A stretch of 64,000 bases of DNA. It comes from Odoribacter splanchnicus DSM 20712. Its GTDB lineage: Bacteria; Bacteroidota; Bacteroidia; Bacteroidales; Marinifilaceae. Below, in pieces: positions 1-7,173 of the stretch. The stretch is from the NCBI RefSeq assembly GCF_000190535.1, contig NC_015160.1:1798001-1862000 (forward strand), read 5' to 3'. A program made the position numbers and the translations under genes. The notes below the pieces were generated by a model. That model was not told the origin of the DNA. It made no database searches and worked only from the letters and a program-made list of their open reading frames with translations. Within the stretch, counting starts at the first letter, position 1. The number at the start of each line of letters is the position of its first letter.

Positions 1-386
1 TCTACCGTTCCTTTGTCCCAGACCGGCACGCTCCCGTCGGGATATTCGAACAGCAGAAACTCTTTTTTCCCTTTCCGGATGATCCCGGACAAACGGAAAG
101 CAGGAGGCTCTTCCGGAGAGGGAGAGGTTTGCACAGGCCGGGAAACCGGTACCGACTTTATTGCCGGACACTCCGGTTCCGGCAGGACTTCGACGAAAGG
201 GTCGCGATAATTCAACCGTAACGTGTCCTTTCCTACCGGATCAACCGGGGAAGGCGGCGAATATGCGGGAGCGACCGCTTTCCCCTCGCCGGTATAGCGT
301 ACCAACCGCCAGAGAATCCCTCCCCAAAGCCCTGCCGCCAATACGATAAGCACGGCCACGGTTTTCCGGTTTTGCAAGCCGTTCAT
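1..386 (-). CDS. PilP/GspC-like inner-membrane protein of type IV filament operon (partial)
   Basis: The frame opens at an ATG at 386 and runs off the left edge of the window, so only about 128 N-terminal residues are visible. It starts with a short basic stretch and one membrane segment (about residues 10-27, rich in V, L, I, A and G), followed by a proline-rich linker and the start of a small folded domain (about residues 95-128, pattern FRLSGIIRKGKKEFLLFEYP). A single N-terminal anchor, Pro-rich linker and small beta domain is the layout of GspC and PilP, which link the inner-membrane platform to the secretin. Its ATG overlaps the TGA of the preceding lipoprotein gene by four bases, so it belongs to the same operon. 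The assignment rests on layout and position only, because no family motif is visible in the part present. Confidence 0.6.
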   Translation of the reverse strand, partial: MNGLQNRKTVAVLIVLAAGLWGGILWRLVRYTGEGKAVAPAYSPPSPVDPVGKDTLRLNYRDPFVEVLPEPECPAIKSVPVSRPVQTSPSPEEPPAFRLSGIIRKGKKEFLLFEYPDGSVPVWDKGTV

Positions 387-772
387 GGTTCCTCCGCCAA
401 AGGTGAAACAATCAGCAGGCGAACGGCATATTCCCCTGCCCAGGCTGAGTTTTCGGCCCGTATTCCCCAAGTGTATACTCCCGGCTGAAAAGCATACTCA
501 TAACGGCACCCCGCCACCAACGTATCCAACAGGCAGGCTTCGGGCCGGCAGAAATCCGGAGTCGCTATCCGCAGGCGGTAAGCCGTCGCCCCTTCCAACG
601 GTTCCCACAAAAACAACTGCCGCGCCACCACGGTAGTCACACTGTCACCGGGAGCGAGCAGCCGGACCGGACAGCCCGTCAGGTCGGTCTCGAAAACATC
701 GTCACACCCTGACAGGAGCAACACTCCTCCCGCCAGGATTCCCATCCAGGTTTTCATTCGTTTCATTTTCAT
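383..772 (-). CDS. Small lipoprotein in type IV filament operon
   Basis: This 129-residue protein begins MKMKRMKTWMGILAGGV and has a lipobox ending LLLSGC at about residue 23, so it should be lipid-anchored. The rest looks like one beta-sandwich domain (pattern LFLWEPLEGATAYRLRIATP, then YTWGIRAENS), similar in outline to a fibronectin type III fold. A longer frame reaches 985, but the start at 772 is preferred because its ATG overlaps the TGA of the upstream PilO-like gene in an ATGA junction, and the signal peptide begins there. Its own stop overlaps the next gene in the same way. Position between PilO- and PilP-like genes suggests a pilotin-like or secretin-associated role, but no sequence motif proves this. 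Confidence 0.65.
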   Translation of the reverse strand: MKMKRMKTWMGILAGGVLLLSGCDDVFETDLTGCPVRLLAPGDSVTTVVARQLFLWEPLEGATAYRLRIATPDFCRPEACLLDTLVAGCRYEYAFQPGVYTWGIRAENSAWAGEYAVRLLIVSPLAEEP

Positions 773-1269
773 TCCTCCGTAATTTGTTGTATCCATAAAG
801 TCAATTGCAATTGCTTTTCCCGACGGCGGACATCGGTATGCAACCGGAAGCGGGCAGCCACCGGCCTCATCGCTTCCCCTTCCCGTTCCAAAGCGGCCAA
901 CACCTCCAACATCGGCAGGAAACCGCCGGCCAAGGTGAATTCGGCCGTGTAAAGTTTCCACCCCCGCTCCTCTCCGCTCAGCCAAGGCGTATAACCGAGC
1001 ACCGTCACACCACGCCCCTCACCCCATTGCCGTACCCGCTCCAACAAACGGCCGTCACGCAACAAAGCTTCCTTTTTCAAGCGGACAGCCAAGGTGTCGC
1101 CCGATGTTTCACGACACTGCCGCAGCTCCCGCAACACCGCTTCGTTCTGCCTGTAAGACCGCCACAGGGCGACAGGCTTCCTCCAACCGCCGAACCAGAC
1201 CGCTAAAGGCAGACCGAAAAGCAAGGCTGCCAAACCGATTTTCCCATACCGATAATTATTCCGTTCCAT
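769..1269 (-). CDS. PilO/GspM-like inner-membrane assembly protein
   Basis: This 166-residue protein has a short cytoplasmic N-terminus, one membrane helix (about residues 11-27, IGLAALLFGLPLAVWFG), a charged coiled-coil-like stretch (about 37-85) and a C-terminal alpha/beta region of about 70 residues with pattern WKLYTAEFTLAGGFLPMLEV. This is the layout of PilO and GspM, which pair with PilN/GspL in the inner-membrane platform of type IV pili and type II secretion systems. It overlaps the upstream PilN-like gene by 14 bases and the downstream lipoprotein gene by four. Identity is very low in this family, so the call rests on topology, size and gene order. Confidence 0.65.
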   Translation of the reverse strand: MERNNYRYGKIGLAALLFGLPLAVWFGGWRKPVALWRSYRQNEAVLRELRQCRETSGDTLAVRLKKEALLRDGRLLERVRQWGEGRGVTVLGYTPWLSGEERGWKLYTAEFTLAGGFLPMLEVLAALEREGEAMRPVAARFRLHTDVRRREKQLQLTLWIQQITEE

Positions 1270-2266
1270 GTCCCTGTTCTTTATCTGCCCGCCATACGAT
1301 ACTGATGCGGAAGGTGAAATCCGCCTTTTCCGTCCTACGGTCCAATCTTTCGAGCGTCACCCGCCATGAACGGCCTGCCCCGGACAGTTTTTCCGTAAAC
1401 AAAGCCACATCGGCCGGCTCCCGGGTATACCCCTCCACCATCACACACCCTTCTTTTAAAACCAAAGGCTTACCCGCCTCCACCCGCCGTTCGGGAGGAT
1501 TTGCCTCCAACCGGACAAGGGTGACACCCCGAGGCACTGCGGCGGCAATCCGGTCGAACAGCGGAGCCAAACGCCCGCCTCCGGTCAGCATCCGCGACAT
1601 TCTCCCGGCCCTCTCCTCGTCGTCCCGACGCAACTGGATCTTCCGTTGCCATAACGACAGTTCCTCCTCCTGCTGCAAAACCTGCCGCCGTAAAGCGGTC
1701 TGCAAAGGATAAGCGATTCCCGACAGGACCAAGGCCGCCAAGAGTACAGGCCACTTCAAGCGTTTCAGCAAAAGGGCCGCTATCACCTGCTGCTCTTTCT
1801 TGCCCTTGCGCCAATATTTCCATGTCTGCCAATGCCGGTAAGTTTGCTCTACCCACGCTTCCAAATCCAGCACACCGGCAACTGCCGACAAGGAAATTCC
1901 GGCCATCGCCCATCCCTCCTGTTCCCACTTTTCCAACCACGATACAACTTCCACCCTACGCACAAACACCAACAGACGCTTTTCCCCTACCTCTTTCCAT
2001 TCCCACAGGAATTCATCTCCTGCCGTCACCCTTCCGGCCCAATCCGTCTTCCCGGTACAATCCTTCGCAATCACCCCGTACCCGGTGAACAATACCAATA
2101 CCGGCCATCGCCCCGGTTGTATGCCGTCGGCCCGCTCGAGGCATACCTTTTTCCTCTTCCAGTATCCCCGGTAATACACGACATCCGGGTCGGCCTCCTT
2201 TTTCAAAGTGACGACCACCACCGCAAAACGGTTCAACAGGCTCCGTAATCCATTGCTCGGTTTCAT
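1256..2266 (-). CDS. PilN/GspL-like inner-membrane assembly protein
   Basis: This 336-residue protein has a soluble N-terminal half of about 165 residues, one membrane helix at about 170-190 (LKWPVLLAALVLSGIAYPL), a coiled-coil-like segment and a C-terminal ferredoxin-like domain (about 235-325) with the pattern AAAVPRGVTLVRLE followed by MVEGYTREPADVALF. That C-terminal pattern is typical of PilN. The N-terminal half would take the place of GspL or PilM, which recruit the assembly ATPase, and no separate PilM gene is present. The ATG at 2266 shares one base with the secretin TGA. The protein should sit in the inner membrane with its C-terminus in the periplasm. Confidence 0.75.
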   Translation of the reverse strand: MKPSNGLRSLLNRFAVVVVTLKKEADPDVVYYRGYWKRKKVCLERADGIQPGRWPVLVLFTGYGVIAKDCTGKTDWAGRVTAGDEFLWEWKEVGEKRLLVFVRRVEVVSWLEKWEQEGWAMAGISLSAVAGVLDLEAWVEQTYRHWQTWKYWRKGKKEQQVIAALLLKRLKWPVLLAALVLSGIAYPLQTALRRQVLQQEEELSLWQRKIQLRRDDEERAGRMSRMLTGGGRLAPLFDRIAAAVPRGVTLVRLEANPPERRVEAGKPLVLKEGCVMVEGYTREPADVALFTEKLSGAGRSWRVTLERLDRRTEKADFTFRISIVWRADKEQGHGTE

Positions 2267-4158
2267 CAGAATATCACGGTCGGTTTGATAAATATGCTCA
2301 ACTTCTCATCCACCTTATTGTCTGTGGATACACCGAACAACCATTTCAACACCGGAATCCGGGCAATCAGCGGCAAACCGCTGGAACCTTTCTCGCGGGT
2401 ATTGCGGTCGATGCCGCCCAACAGCACCATATCCTCGTTGTCCACCCGGATCCGGGATTTAAAACTGCGGGTAGCCGTCCCCGGCGGGGCGTCCTTCTCT
2501 TCACGGGCGGTAAATTCGCTCTGTTCGATTTCGATCGTCAGGGTGATTTTTCCGTCACTGCTGACATAAGGGACGATTTTCAGGCTTAAATCGGCCTCCG
2601 TACTCTTCCAGGTATAGGATTCGGACTGAATGGGATTCTGCGTGCCCATGATGTTATTCTGCACCTCTTTGTAATAACGGGTTTCCCCGCTCTTTAAGCT
2701 CGCCTCATGACCGTTCAGGGTAGACAATTTGGGAGTGGAGCGCAATTCCAATGTCCCCGCCTCTTCCAATGCCTTCAAGGTGAGATAAAAGTTGGGCGTC
2801 ACTTTTCCCAGATTCACACTGCCGAAACCGTTAAAACTGTGAATCAACCGGTTGACCGACGCCGCGGATAAAGTAAAATCCACCCCGGGACTAAGCCTTC
2901 CGGCCGTCTTTACCGGTTTTTCTCCCAAACCGGCCGTTATCCCTGCTTCCCGAAGGCTGCTTTTCTTCGAATCGACAATCAGCACTTCAATGGTAATCAG
3001 TGGCACCGTCCGGTCAATCGCTCCGACAAACTGCCGGAGCGAGGCAATCTGCCGGCTGGTGCCCGAAACGATAAGGCTGTTCTGTTCGGCAAAAGCACCG
3101 ATTTGCATATCGGCCTTCAAGGCTTCGGGTATAAGCTCGGGAACATTCTCCACCGTCCGGTAGCGCAACGGAATGACAGCCGTGGTACGCAAGATTTTCT
3201 GCTGTTCCTGAGCCCCGAAAAGATAAACGCCGTTCTCTTCCCGGAAAAGAAAAGGCGTCCCCGCAAACAGCACATGGAAAAGCGAAGGAATATCGACATC
3301 GCGGACATACAAGGAAACCTGCCGGTTAAGCGGCGCAAGGAACATCCGGTCGAGATTCGCCTGCCGGCATACTTCGGTGACAATATCCTGAATACTTCCC
3401 CGTTGAATCGAAACGGTAGCTTTGCCCGTACTGTCCACCCGGACCTGGTCGGCAGTAAAAAAGTGCCGGGGCTGGAAAGATACCGTCTTGTCCTGTGCCC
3501 CTGCCTCTCCTGCCAGCAAATGCCAGTATTTTCCATCCCGGCGCTCCGCCGTCAGACCGTTCGACACCGCCAACGCCTCTATCGCCTCACTGACCGGTAA
3601 TCCGTTGATAAATCCCGACACCTGCCGGCCATACAAGTTTTGGGGAATGACAATCTTTTCACCGGTAAGCCGGGCAATCTCACGCACCGCTTCCACCAAT
3701 CCCTCCCCCTGCAAATCATACGACAATTCCCGCTTCAGGCTATCGTATCCGACTTTTATCACAGGAGGCGGGGAAGGCAAAGGCAGCGGGTCGCTCACAG
3801 AAACAATATTTCCGACCACCTCGATTTCCAACCGATATTCCCGGCAGAGATACGCAAGCAAATCCACGACCCGGACCCGGTTAAAATGGCAGGTCACCAA
3901 CGGATGTTCAGCGGTTTTTACACACAAGTTCACCCCGTTGGTTTTGGCCACATTCCGCAACAATTCCCCCAAGGGCAACCTACCCGCGGAAAGGTCTATC
4001 TCCGTCCCATACGCCGGGTCGGCCAGGAGCAACGAATCCAATCGCCGGCCGATTGTTTCCAATCTCAGCGAATCCTGCGGAGGCCGGGCATTTACGGTTG
4101 TCGCCGTCATCCAGACAAGCAACAACGCAGCAAACCATTTTTTTCTGTTCATAAGCAT
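2266..4158 (-). CDS. Type II/IV secretin (GspD/PilQ family)
   Basis: This 630-residue outer-membrane secretin should form the gated channel of the filament machine. It has an N-terminal signal peptide (about residues 1-25), an STN-like N0 domain (about 55-125, LAYLCREYRLEIEV), further N-domains, and a C-terminal secretin domain from about 390 to 630. The hallmark C-terminal pattern is present: VLLGGIDRNTREKGSSGLP, then IPVLKWLFG, then KLSIFIKPTVI. The protein ends just after this, without a C-terminal S-domain, so any pilotin must bind elsewhere. An ATG at 4152 would give the ATGA overlap with the ATPase stop seen at other junctions in this operon and is as plausible as the one at 4158. Confidence 0.93.
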   Translation of the reverse strand: MLMNRKKWFAALLLVWMTATTVNARPPQDSLRLETIGRRLDSLLLADPAYGTEIDLSAGRLPLGELLRNVAKTNGVNLCVKTAEHPLVTCHFNRVRVVDLLAYLCREYRLEIEVVGNIVSVSDPLPLPSPPPVIKVGYDSLKRELSYDLQGEGLVEAVREIARLTGEKIVIPQNLYGRQVSGFINGLPVSEAIEALAVSNGLTAERRDGKYWHLLAGEAGAQDKTVSFQPRHFFTADQVRVDSTGKATVSIQRGSIQDIVTEVCRQANLDRMFLAPLNRQVSLYVRDVDIPSLFHVLFAGTPFLFREENGVYLFGAQEQQKILRTTAVIPLRYRTVENVPELIPEALKADMQIGAFAEQNSLIVSGTSRQIASLRQFVGAIDRTVPLITIEVLIVDSKKSSLREAGITAGLGEKPVKTAGRLSPGVDFTLSAASVNRLIHSFNGFGSVNLGKVTPNFYLTLKALEEAGTLELRSTPKLSTLNGHEASLKSGETRYYKEVQNNIMGTQNPIQSESYTWKSTEADLSLKIVPYVSSDGKITLTIEIEQSEFTAREEKDAPPGTATRSFKSRIRVDNEDMVLLGGIDRNTREKGSSGLPLIARIPVLKWLFGVSTDNKVDEKLSIFIKPTVIF

Positions 4159-5522
4159 TCGTTTAATAAAGGCAACACTTCTTCGTAGGAGGTCAGGCCT
4201 TGTTCCACCAATTCAAGAGCCGACGCACGCAACGTACGGATTCCCAATCGTTCCGGATCGACCGCAACCTCCTCTGTCCGCCGGATAGCGGAAGCCAACC
4301 GGTCATCTACGGGCAACACCTCATATATGGCTTTCCGTCCGGCATATCCCGTATCGTAACAAGCCTCACAGCCTACAGCCCGAAAGCCGTGCCGGTCATC
4401 CCGGGGAACTTTGCAATGCGGACACAACAGCCGCACCAACCGTTGGGCTACACACAAAACAAGGGTATCGGCAAGCAGATAAGGATGTACCCCCATATCC
4501 GTCAACCGCGACACACATCCCCAGGCGCTGTTGGTATGGATAGTCGAAAAGATCAGATGTCCTGTCAAGGCACTGCGAATCGCCATCTGTGCCGTATCGG
4601 CGTCCCGGATTTCTCCCAACATGACGATATCGGGATCCTGCCGCAGGAATGTCCGCAAAGCCGCCGAAAAAGTCAGTCCGATATCTTCCCTCAACTGCAC
4701 CTGATTTACCCCTTCCAAAGTATATTCCACCGGGTCTTCTATAGTGAGGATATTCCGGGTCGTCTCATTCAGCAAGCGGAGGGTGGCATATAAGGTGGTG
4801 CTCTTCCCCGATCCCGTAGGCCCGCAAATCAACACCAATCCATGCGGCTTACGGACCGCCCCTAAGTAATCCCTCAACTGACGCGTATCGAACCCTAAGT
4901 TGTCCAATTCCAGCAATTCGGCATGGCGGGTCAGCAGACGCAACACCACCTTTTCTCCGTGGATAACCGGCAACACGGAAACCCGCACATCGAAACGGGC
5001 TTCGTCGTGGTGATAAAAAATACGGCCATCCTGCGGCAGACGCTTTTCGGAAATATCCAGGTTCGCCAGAATCTTAATCTGATTGACCACCGATGCGTAG
5101 TTTCCTTTCTCGATGACATGCCGCTCGATGAGCTGCCCGTCGATACGGAAACGCACCCGGCAAATATGCTCGTAGGGTTCGAAATGAATGTCGCTGGCAT
5201 AATTCCGGTAAGCATCATCGATCAAATCGTACAGGAAACCGGAATGTCCTGCGACAAACTGTTTCGTTGCCTCTCTCCCGGTTTTCCGATAGCAGCGATG
5301 AATCAACCGGCGGAACTCTTCCGGTGCCATCGGCTCGACAACAAGGGTGTTTCCGGTCAATACTTCCAGTTCCTCCATCACCTGCGTATAATCACGGCCT
5401 TCTTCTCCGTAACAAACCAATACCTTGCCGCGAAAAGCACAGGGTATCACCCGGTATTCCCAGGCCTCAGCCGCCGAAAGCCGGTCCAGGACCTCCGTCG
5501 CAATACATCGTTCAGTATCCAT
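4149..5522 (-). CDS. GspE/PilB-family filament assembly ATPase
   Basis: This 457-residue cytoplasmic ATPase powers extension of type IV filaments or type II pseudopili. It carries the full motif set: Walker A GPTGSGKST (about residue 233), Asp box TIEDPVEY, Walker B VMLGEIRDADT, His box HLIFSTIHTN, and the two CxxC pairs of the zinc site (CPHC at about 366, CEAC at about 383). The N-terminal MshEN-like region is short. No second ATPase of the retraction (PilT) type is visible here, which favours a secretion-type or non-retracting filament, although it could be encoded elsewhere. It overlaps the prepilin peptidase gene by 11 bases and the secretin gene by about 10. Confidence 0.95.
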   Translation of the reverse strand: MDTERCIATEVLDRLSAAEAWEYRVIPCAFRGKVLVCYGEEGRDYTQVMEELEVLTGNTLVVEPMAPEEFRRLIHRCYRKTGREATKQFVAGHSGFLYDLIDDAYRNYASDIHFEPYEHICRVRFRIDGQLIERHVIEKGNYASVVNQIKILANLDISEKRLPQDGRIFYHHDEARFDVRVSVLPVIHGEKVVLRLLTRHAELLELDNLGFDTRQLRDYLGAVRKPHGLVLICGPTGSGKSTTLYATLRLLNETTRNILTIEDPVEYTLEGVNQVQLREDIGLTFSAALRTFLRQDPDIVMLGEIRDADTAQMAIRSALTGHLIFSTIHTNSAWGCVSRLTDMGVHPYLLADTLVLCVAQRLVRLLCPHCKVPRDDRHGFRAVGCEACYDTGYAGRKAIYEVLPVDDRLASAIRRTEEVAVDPERLGIRTLRASALELVEQGLTSYEEVLPLLNECL

Positions 5523-5967
5523 ACATCCGAAAAAATAAAACAGGTAAATAACAAATTCCTATCATGCTGACCAACGGAATGGTAGCAGAATGATTTTTCC
5601 CCGATATCAACCAATATATCAGCGATATGCCGAACGACACCAACAGAAAAACCAAAAACAGCCGCAAAGCAAAAACCGGCAGGAAACACACCAAAAAAGC
5701 CACATCCCCTTTTCCAATCCACCCTGTCCGGACACCCTTCCTACCCGGCCGAAGCCACCGGAACCAAATGCCGGTACCCACTCCCCAAACAGCCAACAGC
5801 AGGAAATTTTCCAATACTCTTTCCGCAAAAACCGCCGTACCCGACTCCGCTATACAGATGCCCCATTGAATGCCGCCGAATGCCAATAGGGCCGGCACCC
5901 CCACCTGCCGTTCCCGGAAATCCGACCGGATCAGTACCAACAGAGGCCACAATAAAAGCACTTCCAT
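5512..5967 (-). CDS. Minimal prepilin peptidase (A24 family)
   Basis: This 151-residue polytopic membrane protein should be the aspartic peptidase that trims the leader of the adjacent pilin. Both catalytic aspartates of the A24 family can be placed: the first in RSDFRERQV (D16) and the second in the GxGD-type motif IGKGDVAF (D88). About four to five hydrophobic segments are visible. It lacks the N-terminal N-methyltransferase domain with paired cysteines found in full-length PilD/GspO, so it resembles the short TadV/FppA-like or archaeal-type enzymes. It begins five bases after the pilin stop and overlaps the ATPase start. Confidence 0.85.
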   Translation of the reverse strand: MEVLLLWPLLVLIRSDFRERQVGVPALLAFGGIQWGICIAESGTAVFAERVLENFLLLAVWGVGTGIWFRWLRPGRKGVRTGWIGKGDVAFLVCFLPVFALRLFLVFLLVSFGISLIYWLISGKNHSATIPLVSMIGICYLPVLFFRMYGY

Positions 5968-5972
5968 CGCCG

Positions 5973-6383
5973 TCAGTCTTTGGTGATTTCCTTTAACTCC
6001 TTGTCCTGGTCGATTTCCCAGACATTGTATACTCCATCGCCGTCAAAGTCTACGACAGCCGTGGCCGTAGCCCGGAATCCCCGTTCGTCGGCCGATACAA
6101 TTTCAATGCGGTAATTGGCATTTCCTCCTTCCGTCACCAAGCGGGCATGCTCGAAACCGACTTCTTCCAACGAAGCGGAATAACGCGACCGGATATAGAA
6201 ATAACTCTTTTCCAGCGTATGCAGGAAAACCAGCTGCTGTTGCGCTTCCATACTTTTGGCCTTGGAAATCAACGGCATCAGATTAGGCAAAGCAATCAGC
6301 ACCAGAATGCCGATGATCACCAACACGACTAATAATTCAGGCAAGGAAAAGGCCTGCCATTTCCGTTTCAGAACCGTATTCAT
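5973..6383 (-). CDS. Type IV pilin / GspG-like pseudopilin
   Basis: This 136-residue protein has the class III leader and N-terminal helix of type IV pilins: a basic leader of 11 residues, then AFSLPELLVVLVIIGIL, with Glu at +5 of the predicted mature protein (residue 16). The residue before the cleavage site is Ala rather than the usual Gly. The globular part contains an Asp-rich loop DFDGDGVYNVWEIDQ near the C-terminus, which resembles the calcium-binding loop of major pseudopilins (GspG). It is the only pilin-like gene visible in the window and is the first gene of the machine operon, so it is probably the major subunit. Gene order and the Asp-rich loop favour a T2SS-like or stable filament. 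Confidence 0.9.
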   Translation of the reverse strand: MNTVLKRKWQAFSLPELLVVLVIIGILVLIALPNLMPLISKAKSMEAQQQLVFLHTLEKSYFYIRSRYSASLEEVGFEHARLVTEGGNANYRIEIVSADERGFRATATAVVDFDGDGVYNVWEIDQDKELKEITKD

Positions 6384-6489: not shown

Positions 6490-7173
6490 TTAAAAAACAT
6501 CCAGGTCTTCAAGCATATACCCGCGCTTGTATACATTCGTAATCGTCAAACCCGAATCTTCTCCCAATATATGGCGCAACCGTCCTATACATTTACACAA
6601 ATAAGTCTTCGTATCGGCATTGTATTCAAACCAATAGATTCCGATCAACTCCTCGTAAGCAACCACTTTCCCTTTATTCCGGGCTAAAAGTTCGAGTACC
6701 CGGAATTCACATTCACTCAGGAGCAATGACCCGTTAGGCAGAAACAGCCGCTGTGAGGCAACGGCCAAATGTACCTGCCTGTTCAATACATATTCTTTTT
6801 CTACCTGCCAGCCGGCATAGCGAAACCAAGCCTGTAAATAAGCTTTCAGTTCACGGGAAGTAAAATGAGTGATGTAATTGTCGGCTCCTTCGCCGAGAGC
6901 CATTTCAATCTCCTCATCCGCCATGGGGTGTCCTTTTACAAAAATGACCGTTTTCCGGTCCTCCAGGCGGATCCGCCGTAAAATCCGGTACAAACCGTCA
7001 TAATTATTCTCCAATACGATGGCTTTTGTCTGCCCGGAATCATAATACAGGAAAGCATCGGCATTGGTTTTCACTACTTCTACCTTGTAGTTCCCTATTT
7101 TCACGACTTTCAGAATCTCTTCCGCGATTACCGCTCTTTTCTCGACAATGATAATTTTTTCCATACAGTTCAT
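6490..7173 (-). CDS. OmpR-family transcriptional regulator with degenerate receiver domain
   Basis: This 227-residue protein has a receiver-like domain (about 1-120) and an OmpR-type winged helix at the C-terminus (about 130-225, pattern LSECEFRVLELLARNKGKVV, later GRLRHILGED and NVYKRGYML). The receiver lacks the phosphorylation site: the acidic pair after beta-1 is replaced in IIIVEKRAV, the phospho-acceptor Asp position reads VLENN (Glu or Asn), the beta-4 Ser/Thr is absent in VIFVKG, and the beta-5 Lys is His in YITHF. It therefore cannot be switched by a normal histidine kinase, and none is nearby. It is directly upstream of the filament operon on the same strand, so it is probably that operon's dedicated regulator. 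Start could also be the ATG at 7164. Confidence 0.88.
   Translation of the reverse strand: MNCMEKIIIVEKRAVIAEEILKVVKIGNYKVEVVKTNADAFLYYDSGQTKAIVLENNYDGLYRILRRIRLEDRKTVIFVKGHPMADEEIEMALGEGADNYITHFTSRELKAYLQAWFRYAGWQVEKEYVLNRQVHLAVASQRLFLPNGSLLLSECEFRVLELLARNKGKVVAYEELIGIYWFEYNADTKTYLCKCIGRLRHILGEDSGLTITNVYKRGYMLEDLDVF

Follow-up and report, generated by a model that had tools for sequence, protein, structure and literature searches.

The window analysed here is a stretch of 64,000 bases from the genome of Odoribacter splanchnicus DSM 20712 (G000:C1:1798001-1862000, on the single contig of 4,392,288 bases; G numbers denote genomes and L numbers loci), and at its left edge lie eight minus-strand genes for a machine related to type II secretion systems (T2SS) and type IV pili (T4P). 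In operon order they encode a pilin, a short prepilin peptidase, a GspE-like ATPase, a secretin, PilN-like and PilO-like proteins, a lipoprotein-like protein and a PilP/GspC-like protein. The machine genes, and a regulator gene next to them, are as follows (window coordinates, all on the minus strand):

5973..6383, minus: major pilin or GspG-like pseudopilin, 136 amino acids (N_methyl PF07963, 26.9 bits, and TIGR02532, both over cut-off)
5512..5967, minus: short prepilin peptidase, GspO-like, 151 amino acids (Peptidase_A24, 19.0 bits, under the cut-off of 26.5)
4149..5522, minus: assembly ATPase, GspE/PilB-like, 457 amino acids (T2SSE, 418.9 bits)
2266..4158, minus: secretin, GspD/PilQ-like, 630 amino acids (Secretin, 123.4 bits)
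1256..2266, minus: GspL-like protein with PilM-like cytoplasmic and PilN-like parts fused, 336 amino acids (weak PilN match, 16.3 bits, cut-off 22.8; predicted fold)
769..1269, minus: GspM/PilO-like protein, 166 amino acids (position and size)
383..772, minus: small component resembling a lipoprotein, its gene flanked by those for the PilO-like and PilP-like proteins (hydrophobic N-terminus followed by SGC, by eye)
1..386, minus, extending 81 bp beyond the left window edge: PilP/GspC-like protein (T2SSC E 0.028 and PilP E 0.012, both under cut-off)
6490..7173, minus, adjoining the pilin gene on its upstream side: regulator of the OmpR type whose receiver domain is weak (Trans_reg_C over cut-off with 44.8 bits, Response_reg under it with 18 bits)

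A first-pass annotation, made from the window's sequence alone, had described the eight genes as tightly packed, and as called the gaps between them indeed range from -16 to +5 bp. The identities it proposed for the pilin, the ATPase and the secretin are firm, those of the peptidase, PilN and PilP/GspC come with weak matches, and the PilO-like and lipoprotein-like genes, which gave no match in the family scans, are named from where they lie, how large they are and how they align with relatives. A profile built from the PilO-like protein and four relatives detects the gene at the same place in many loci, and the lipoprotein-like gene, which starts at 772 or 766, has profile matches in many relatives and a longer version (about 310-340 amino acids) in many distant loci. 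The length of the prepilin peptidase leaves no room for a methyltransferase part, and many relatives have a similar peptidase gene after their pilin gene. No PDZ match was found in the C-like protein in the family scan. Structure prediction for the PilN-like protein yielded both folded parts of GspL, an actin-like cytoplasmic part and a periplasmic ferredoxin-like part being joined through a membrane helix, and a GspL-like profile compared with PDB sequences gave one weak PilN match only (E 0.043). By its predicted fold, the product of the "PilN" gene is a GspL-type fusion, so that the PilM reported missing at first pass would be contained in it. PilT, in contrast, is missing as reported: because the genome holds one T2SSE ATPase (the GspE-like protein is the only PF00437 match in all of G000), there is no PilT in G000.

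The OmpR-type regulator with its degenerate receiver domain may be what switches the operon; a regulator-like gene, recognised by eye, holds the same position in G007 and G011. A Bacteroidales-type promoter pattern matched 7 times in the window versus 2 expected, with 0 matches at the operon.

A Tc-like Rhs cassette adjoins the machine

On the same strand, 13 bp past the PilP/GspC gene, lies a gene for a TcB-like protein of 1286 amino acids, followed 12 bp on by an Rhs gene (1553 amino acids) and 1 bp further on by a gene for 152 amino acids. The 1553-residue protein contains DUF6443, Rhs repeats, Rhs_assc_core and a C-terminal Tox-REase-9 domain (116 bits), and the 152-residue protein, which matches DUF4304 with 23.9 bits, barely above the cut-off of 23.2, is by its sequence plausibly an immunity protein. 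With an Rhs core, a C-terminal toxin domain and an immunity-like gene downstream, the Rhs gene of G000 has the attributes that define an Rhs polymorphic toxin.

The 1286-residue protein gave no match over cut-off in the family scans. Its relative from Odoribacter laneus (971 amino acids) was modelled with a mean predicted local distance difference test score of 72.6 and a predicted template-modelling score of 0.76, and the best Foldseek matches of the model were the B-C shells of Tc toxins (YenB/RHS2, E 2e-21, TM score 0.46 of the query, 8-10% identity), with a further match to SpvB (4e-6). Judged from the model of this relative, the G000 gene is predicted to encode a TcB-like shell fold. The TcB-like and Rhs proteins each open with a Sec-type signal, as judged by eye. 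Among six further Rhs proteins one (L103) carries Ntox33 and five have no known toxin domain, three of the latter (L033, L039, L100) being cut before their end. In the Alistipes loci L042 (6730-9805) and L044 an insert separates the ATPase gene from that of the secretin; by eye, it consists of an Rhs tip fragment that has a signal peptide of its own and of small genes for lipoprotein-like proteins, an arrangement reminiscent of spare toxin tips.

The far half of the machine lies outside the window

The platform protein GspF/PilC, not visible in the window and predicted at first pass to lie to its left, was found there on extending leftward (T2SSF E 3.6e-46; 198 bits with the NCBIfam GspF model, cut-off 424). 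This sole GspF gene of G000 (C1:1776421-1777479) is one of four minus-strand genes that overlap one another and make up the K-I-J-F block (G000:C1:1776421-1779461), which lies 18.5-21.6 kb to the left of the window. The I- and J-like genes are minor-pilin-like, with one sub-cut-off match apiece (ComGE and TIGR02532, 13.6 bits each), and the K-like gene (404 amino acids), without a match in the family scans, was recognised by position and, by eye, from its GspK/PilX-like N-terminus. The machine thus probably has more than the one pilin counted in the window. Also by eye, the GspK-like protein (L003:13247-14461, corresponding to G000:C1:1778247-1779461) has a long C-terminal part with a beta-helix-like, bactofilin-like pattern; a tip pilin bearing a beta-helix-like domain would be unusual.

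Among relatives, G011 and G021 have the full set from pilin through GspF in one run, and in G007, from the same genus as G000, K-I-J-F is placed upstream of the regulator. Given the uninterrupted set in the first two genomes and the moved block in the third, the G000 system is complete but rearranged; it is a complete T2SS-type set, split, with its far half displaced by an island. The idea of an unusually reduced, minimal system is accordingly rejected, GspF, two minor-pilin-like genes and the GspK-like gene having been found outside the window, and a decayed half-operon is unsupported, every core frame of G000 being open. A broken machine was seen elsewhere, the secretin of G070 being in two pieces. 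The island, between the immunity-like gene and K-I-J-F (L004:1-6900, L003:14781-16822), holds IS3-like transposase pieces and ATPase genes (both by eye) as well as Rhs remnants.

Machine and Rhs genes recur together in relatives

Co-occurrence was determined in 393 Bacteroidales genomes, an even draw from the larger group, and in 56 genomes of the family. In the Bacteroidales sample the secretin was found in 24 genomes and DUF6443 in 83, the latter in 19 of the 24 secretin-positive genomes versus 64 of the 369 others (Fisher 4e-10); with over-cut-off DUF6443 matches alone, the counts were 18/24 versus 58/369. In the family, where 13 genomes have the secretin and 21 have DUF6443, all 13 secretin-positive genomes carry DUF6443 versus 8/43 secretin-negative ones (Fisher 1e-7). 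The two are also close in the genome: 14 of 55 DUF6443 matches in the 19 Bacteroidales genomes with both (10 of the 19 genomes) and 12 of 28 in the family (8/13 genomes) lie at most 20 kb from the secretin, versus 0.5 and 0.28 expected under uniform placement along the genome with contig breaks ignored, some of the linked matches falling under the family cut-off (e.g. the second in G007). The machine-Rhs pairing therefore recurs in relatives far above chance.

A secretin scan of genome contigs yielded 147 relatives, of which the best 80 were kept; the nearest named locus among these 80 belongs to an uncultured Odoribacter whose secretin is 90% identical. Profiles built from this locus and its relatives found the machine genes in order and TcB-like and Rhs genes nearby. 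In a secretin tree of 80 rows (no outgroup, L070 left out, no row known as the Cytophaga or Flavobacterium of PMC5553014), the window groups with 25 loci on one branch (Shimodaira-Hasegawa-like approximate likelihood ratio test 100) and the other 54 loci make up the remainder. The inner branch comprises Odoribacter, Butyricimonas, Sanguibacteroides, Alistipes and other Bacteroidales bins; the inner set, picked by secretin identity before the tree, consists of its 25 loci and the duplicate L070 (same bin as L042, both counted). The locus and genome surveys overlap, since L024, L025, L036 and L026-L028 belong to family genomes, and close relatives are not independent.

TcB-like or Rhs genes lie within the fetched stretch in 18 of the 26 inner loci, and five of the eight loci without them (L029, L035, L037, L040, L045) extend less than 700 bp beyond the last machine gene. 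Loci with at least 2 kb past that gene were put to a downstream test that asked for a gene of TcB-like or Rhs type on the strand of the machine, at most 2.5 kb away or inside the cluster. It was passed by 15/19 inner loci, 12 with a TcB-like gene and three (L042, L044, L070) with only an Rhs tip fragment. In the 12 loci the TcB-like gene stands on the machine strand, mostly 13-271 bp away (1020 bp in L038), and the position of the cassette varies: it can come after the gene for P, for F, for N or for the PilO-like protein, a spread that a single accident passed down by descent would not readily give. The secretin tree needs at least 12 label changes, and the Rhs trait therefore comes and goes.

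Very long proteins (1781-1892 amino acids) with a TcB-like start adjoin the distant machines of L055, L071 and L103; they resemble TANFOR toxins, a class to which the machine may be tied too, and the profiles built here catch TANFOR-like giants and fragments in outer loci. Many distant loci have an extra gene for about 210-325 amino acids between the PilP-like and K-like genes (L049:15048-15836, L071:15101-15820, L061:7869-8660), one of them with a weak MORN_2 match; the inner clade is without such a gene except for one of 153 amino acids in L046.

Proposed function and alternatives

We put at roughly 0.55 the probability that the window holds one half of a pseudopilus machine, a Bacteroidota-type T2SS with its set complete, and that a two-gene Rhs capsule toxin is its cargo in this lineage. 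In favour of this stand the operon spacing, the co-occurrence and proximity counts, the varying position of the cassette and the match of the TcB-like model to Tc shells. The wider proposal, to which we give even odds, is that Tc-like Rhs capsules made of two proteins leave gut Bacteroidales through a T2SS-like machine dedicated to them, by a route apart from the type VI secretion system (T6SS), the type IX secretion system (T9SS) and contractile injection, the toxin pair being swapped and the machine kept. The two Rhs proteins would enter the periplasm through Sec and fold there as a closed shell round the toxic tip; GspE, acting on GspL and GspF, would power a short pseudopilus that would push the capsule out via the secretin, the immunity protein shielding the producer. 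The capsule could then be either released or kept on the surface to strike a rival on contact, and the lipoprotein-like component may, as a guess, anchor or pilot the secretin.

Several observations weigh against this proposal. The known T2SS cargoes are smaller than a shell of ~2,800 residues. Secretin and DUF6443 also occur apart, the former without the latter in 5/24 Bacteroidales carriers and the latter without the former in 8/43 family genomes (G005, whose short contig L013 bears K-I-J-F plus a fragment of an Rhs gene; G417, with a strong match; and six with weaker matches or very long frames). In the downstream test 4/19 inner loci fail, L031, L036 and L046 having no such gene in the stretch and L043 having it upstream and divergent, and outer loci pass in only 8/41 cases, with some such gene in the stretch in 27/54. 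Two Sphingobacterium genomes have 11 and 12 DUF6443 matches, of which only 1 and 2 lie at the machine. In Cytophaga t2s mutants, according to the excerpt of PMC5553014 used here, soluble extracellular proteins were hardly altered. A phylum-wide link, considered separately, is weak, given the outer loci and the poor DUF6443 matches in outer isolates (only faint, very long or fragmentary in five of the nine searched).

The machine could instead be a general Bacteroidota T2SS that secretes or presents other surface proteins, as proposed for Cytophaga, with the Rhs cassette a passenger on another route. We consider this unlikely but credible: t2s mutants have cellulose-utilisation defects and altered outer-membrane proteins (PMC5553014, excerpt), many distant loci have no Rhs gene at the machine, and some genomes have many unlinked DUF6443 matches. 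However, it leaves unexplained the co-occurrence in all secretin-positive family genomes and the co-operonic placement, and neither of the two other routes tested gained support. SprA of the T9SS, present in 34/56 family genomes, is not associated with DUF6443 (13/34 versus 8/22, p 1) and is absent in 6/13 carriers of machine and DUF6443 (G007, G011, G418, G420, G422, G428), which leaves the T9SS unsupported as exporter. A T9SS sorting domain gave 0 NCBIfam matches in 20 TcB-like proteins (17 with complete C-termini) and 7 Rhs proteins (4 complete), the 3 cut proteins of each kind being uninformative and the library being one that includes sorting domains. For the T6SS, VipB (PF05943) was matched in 0/56 family genomes, which argues against this exporter within the reach of a model that may miss Bacteroidales T6SS, its control match being only in E. 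coli. The SprA gene of G000 (C1:158886-162591) spans two open frames, 1240 and 822 amino acids long, most SprA-bearing relatives having one of about 2440-2530; judging from the sequence, the T9SS may be broken in G000, or the record may be in error.

It is quite improbable that the site is an insertion hotspot where Rhs toxin islands recombine without a functional tie and where the displaced K-I-J-F of G000 is a scar. The island that splits the G000 cluster, with its IS3-like and ATPase genes and Rhs remnants, would fit such a history, as would its G+C (0.40 in the L004 part versus 0.54 for the machine genes inside the window) and the three Alistipes loci with only an Rhs tip fragment within the cluster, but the 12 inner loci with a TcB-like gene on the machine strand, mostly at the short distances given above and at several different points, argue against it. 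A type IV pilus that serves adhesion or takes up DNA is very improbable, since the clustering of the Bacteroidetes system with type IVa pili (T4aP; PMC6668835, excerpt) and the top NCBIfam match of the pilin, a PilA model (56.5 bits versus a cut-off of 400), are set against the absence of a PilT-type ATPase from the genome, a GspL-type fusion in place of separate PilM and PilN and a long GspK/PilX-like gene (by eye).

If export of Rhs capsules by the machine holds true, a machine studied, in the literature found, only for cellulose use by Cytophaga would acquire a part in competition, and polymorphic toxins would have a delivery route distinct from T6SS, T9SS and contractile injection. With the machine co-operonic with Rhs toxins in gut species, the proposal is testable in culturable anaerobes (Odoribacter, Butyricimonas, Alistipes).

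Comparison with known systems

That a gut Bacteroidales genome carries a machine of the T2SS/T4P type, as claimed in the first-pass annotation, is supported, but its claim that such bacteria are not known for one does not stand: Wang et al., 2017 (PMC5553014, excerpt) give Odosp_1522, 1524-1529 and 1507 as the putative T2SS genes in O. splanchnicus, an outcome close to what the annotation itself had named as telling against it. Matched by gene order and spacing, not by sequence, these tags probably denote the G000 machine. Both descriptions have G, O, E, D, three inner-membrane genes and a distant F; they differ in that the excerpt lists no minor pseudopilins for O. splanchnicus, whereas K-, I- and J-like genes were found here, and in that its T2S-C/L/M labels disagree with the fold, the gene after the secretin being GspL-like here. 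The words 'Rhs' and 'toxin' are absent from the main text of PMC5553014. Denise et al., 2019 (PMC6668835, excerpt) discuss 'the so-called T2SS of Bacteroidetes', which clusters with T4aP and away from T2SS; here the ATPase (GspE 465 bits, cut-off 630; PilB 457 bits), the secretin (GspD 135 bits, cut-off 351; PilQ 126 bits) and the platform protein all fall under the curated NCBIfam cut-offs for T2SS and T4P.

With the proteobacterial T2SS (Gsp/Xcp/Pul) the machine shares ATPase, platform, secretin, pseudopilin-like proteins, a GspL-type fusion and the lack of PilT, and differs in its sub-cut-off GspE, GspD and GspF, an extra conserved lipoprotein-like gene, a short peptidase and a C-like protein without a PDZ match. 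From the type IVa pilus it differs in having no PilT and, by predicted fold, PilM and PilN fused.

The cassette resembles the B-C shell of Tc toxins (YenB/RHS2, TcdB-TccC) in the order of a TcB-like protein gene and an Rhs gene with a variable tip, but identity is low (the 8-10% given above) and both proteins, by eye, carry a Sec-type signal; next to the cassette no TcA-like gene came to notice, no search having been aimed at TcA. Among the matches listed for open-licence papers (titles and abstract starts), none ties Rhs toxins to a Bacteroidota T2SS, and no paper on 'DUF6443' was found among open-licence papers. How signal-peptide-bearing Rhs toxins of Bacteroidota cross the outer membrane appears unsettled, a paper on a related class only suggesting the T9SS (Jana et al., 2020; PMC7073777, excerpt). 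That class, the TANFOR toxins, is like the cassette in being large and polymorphic, mostly with Sec signals, with immunity genes and with the toxin sometimes in the next gene; it differs in that a T9SS is present in >95% of carrier genomes, SprA being absent here from the 6/13 carriers named above. The machine is thus of a known kind and its locus is already in print; what appears new, among the open-licence papers listed, is its tie to Tc-like Rhs capsules.

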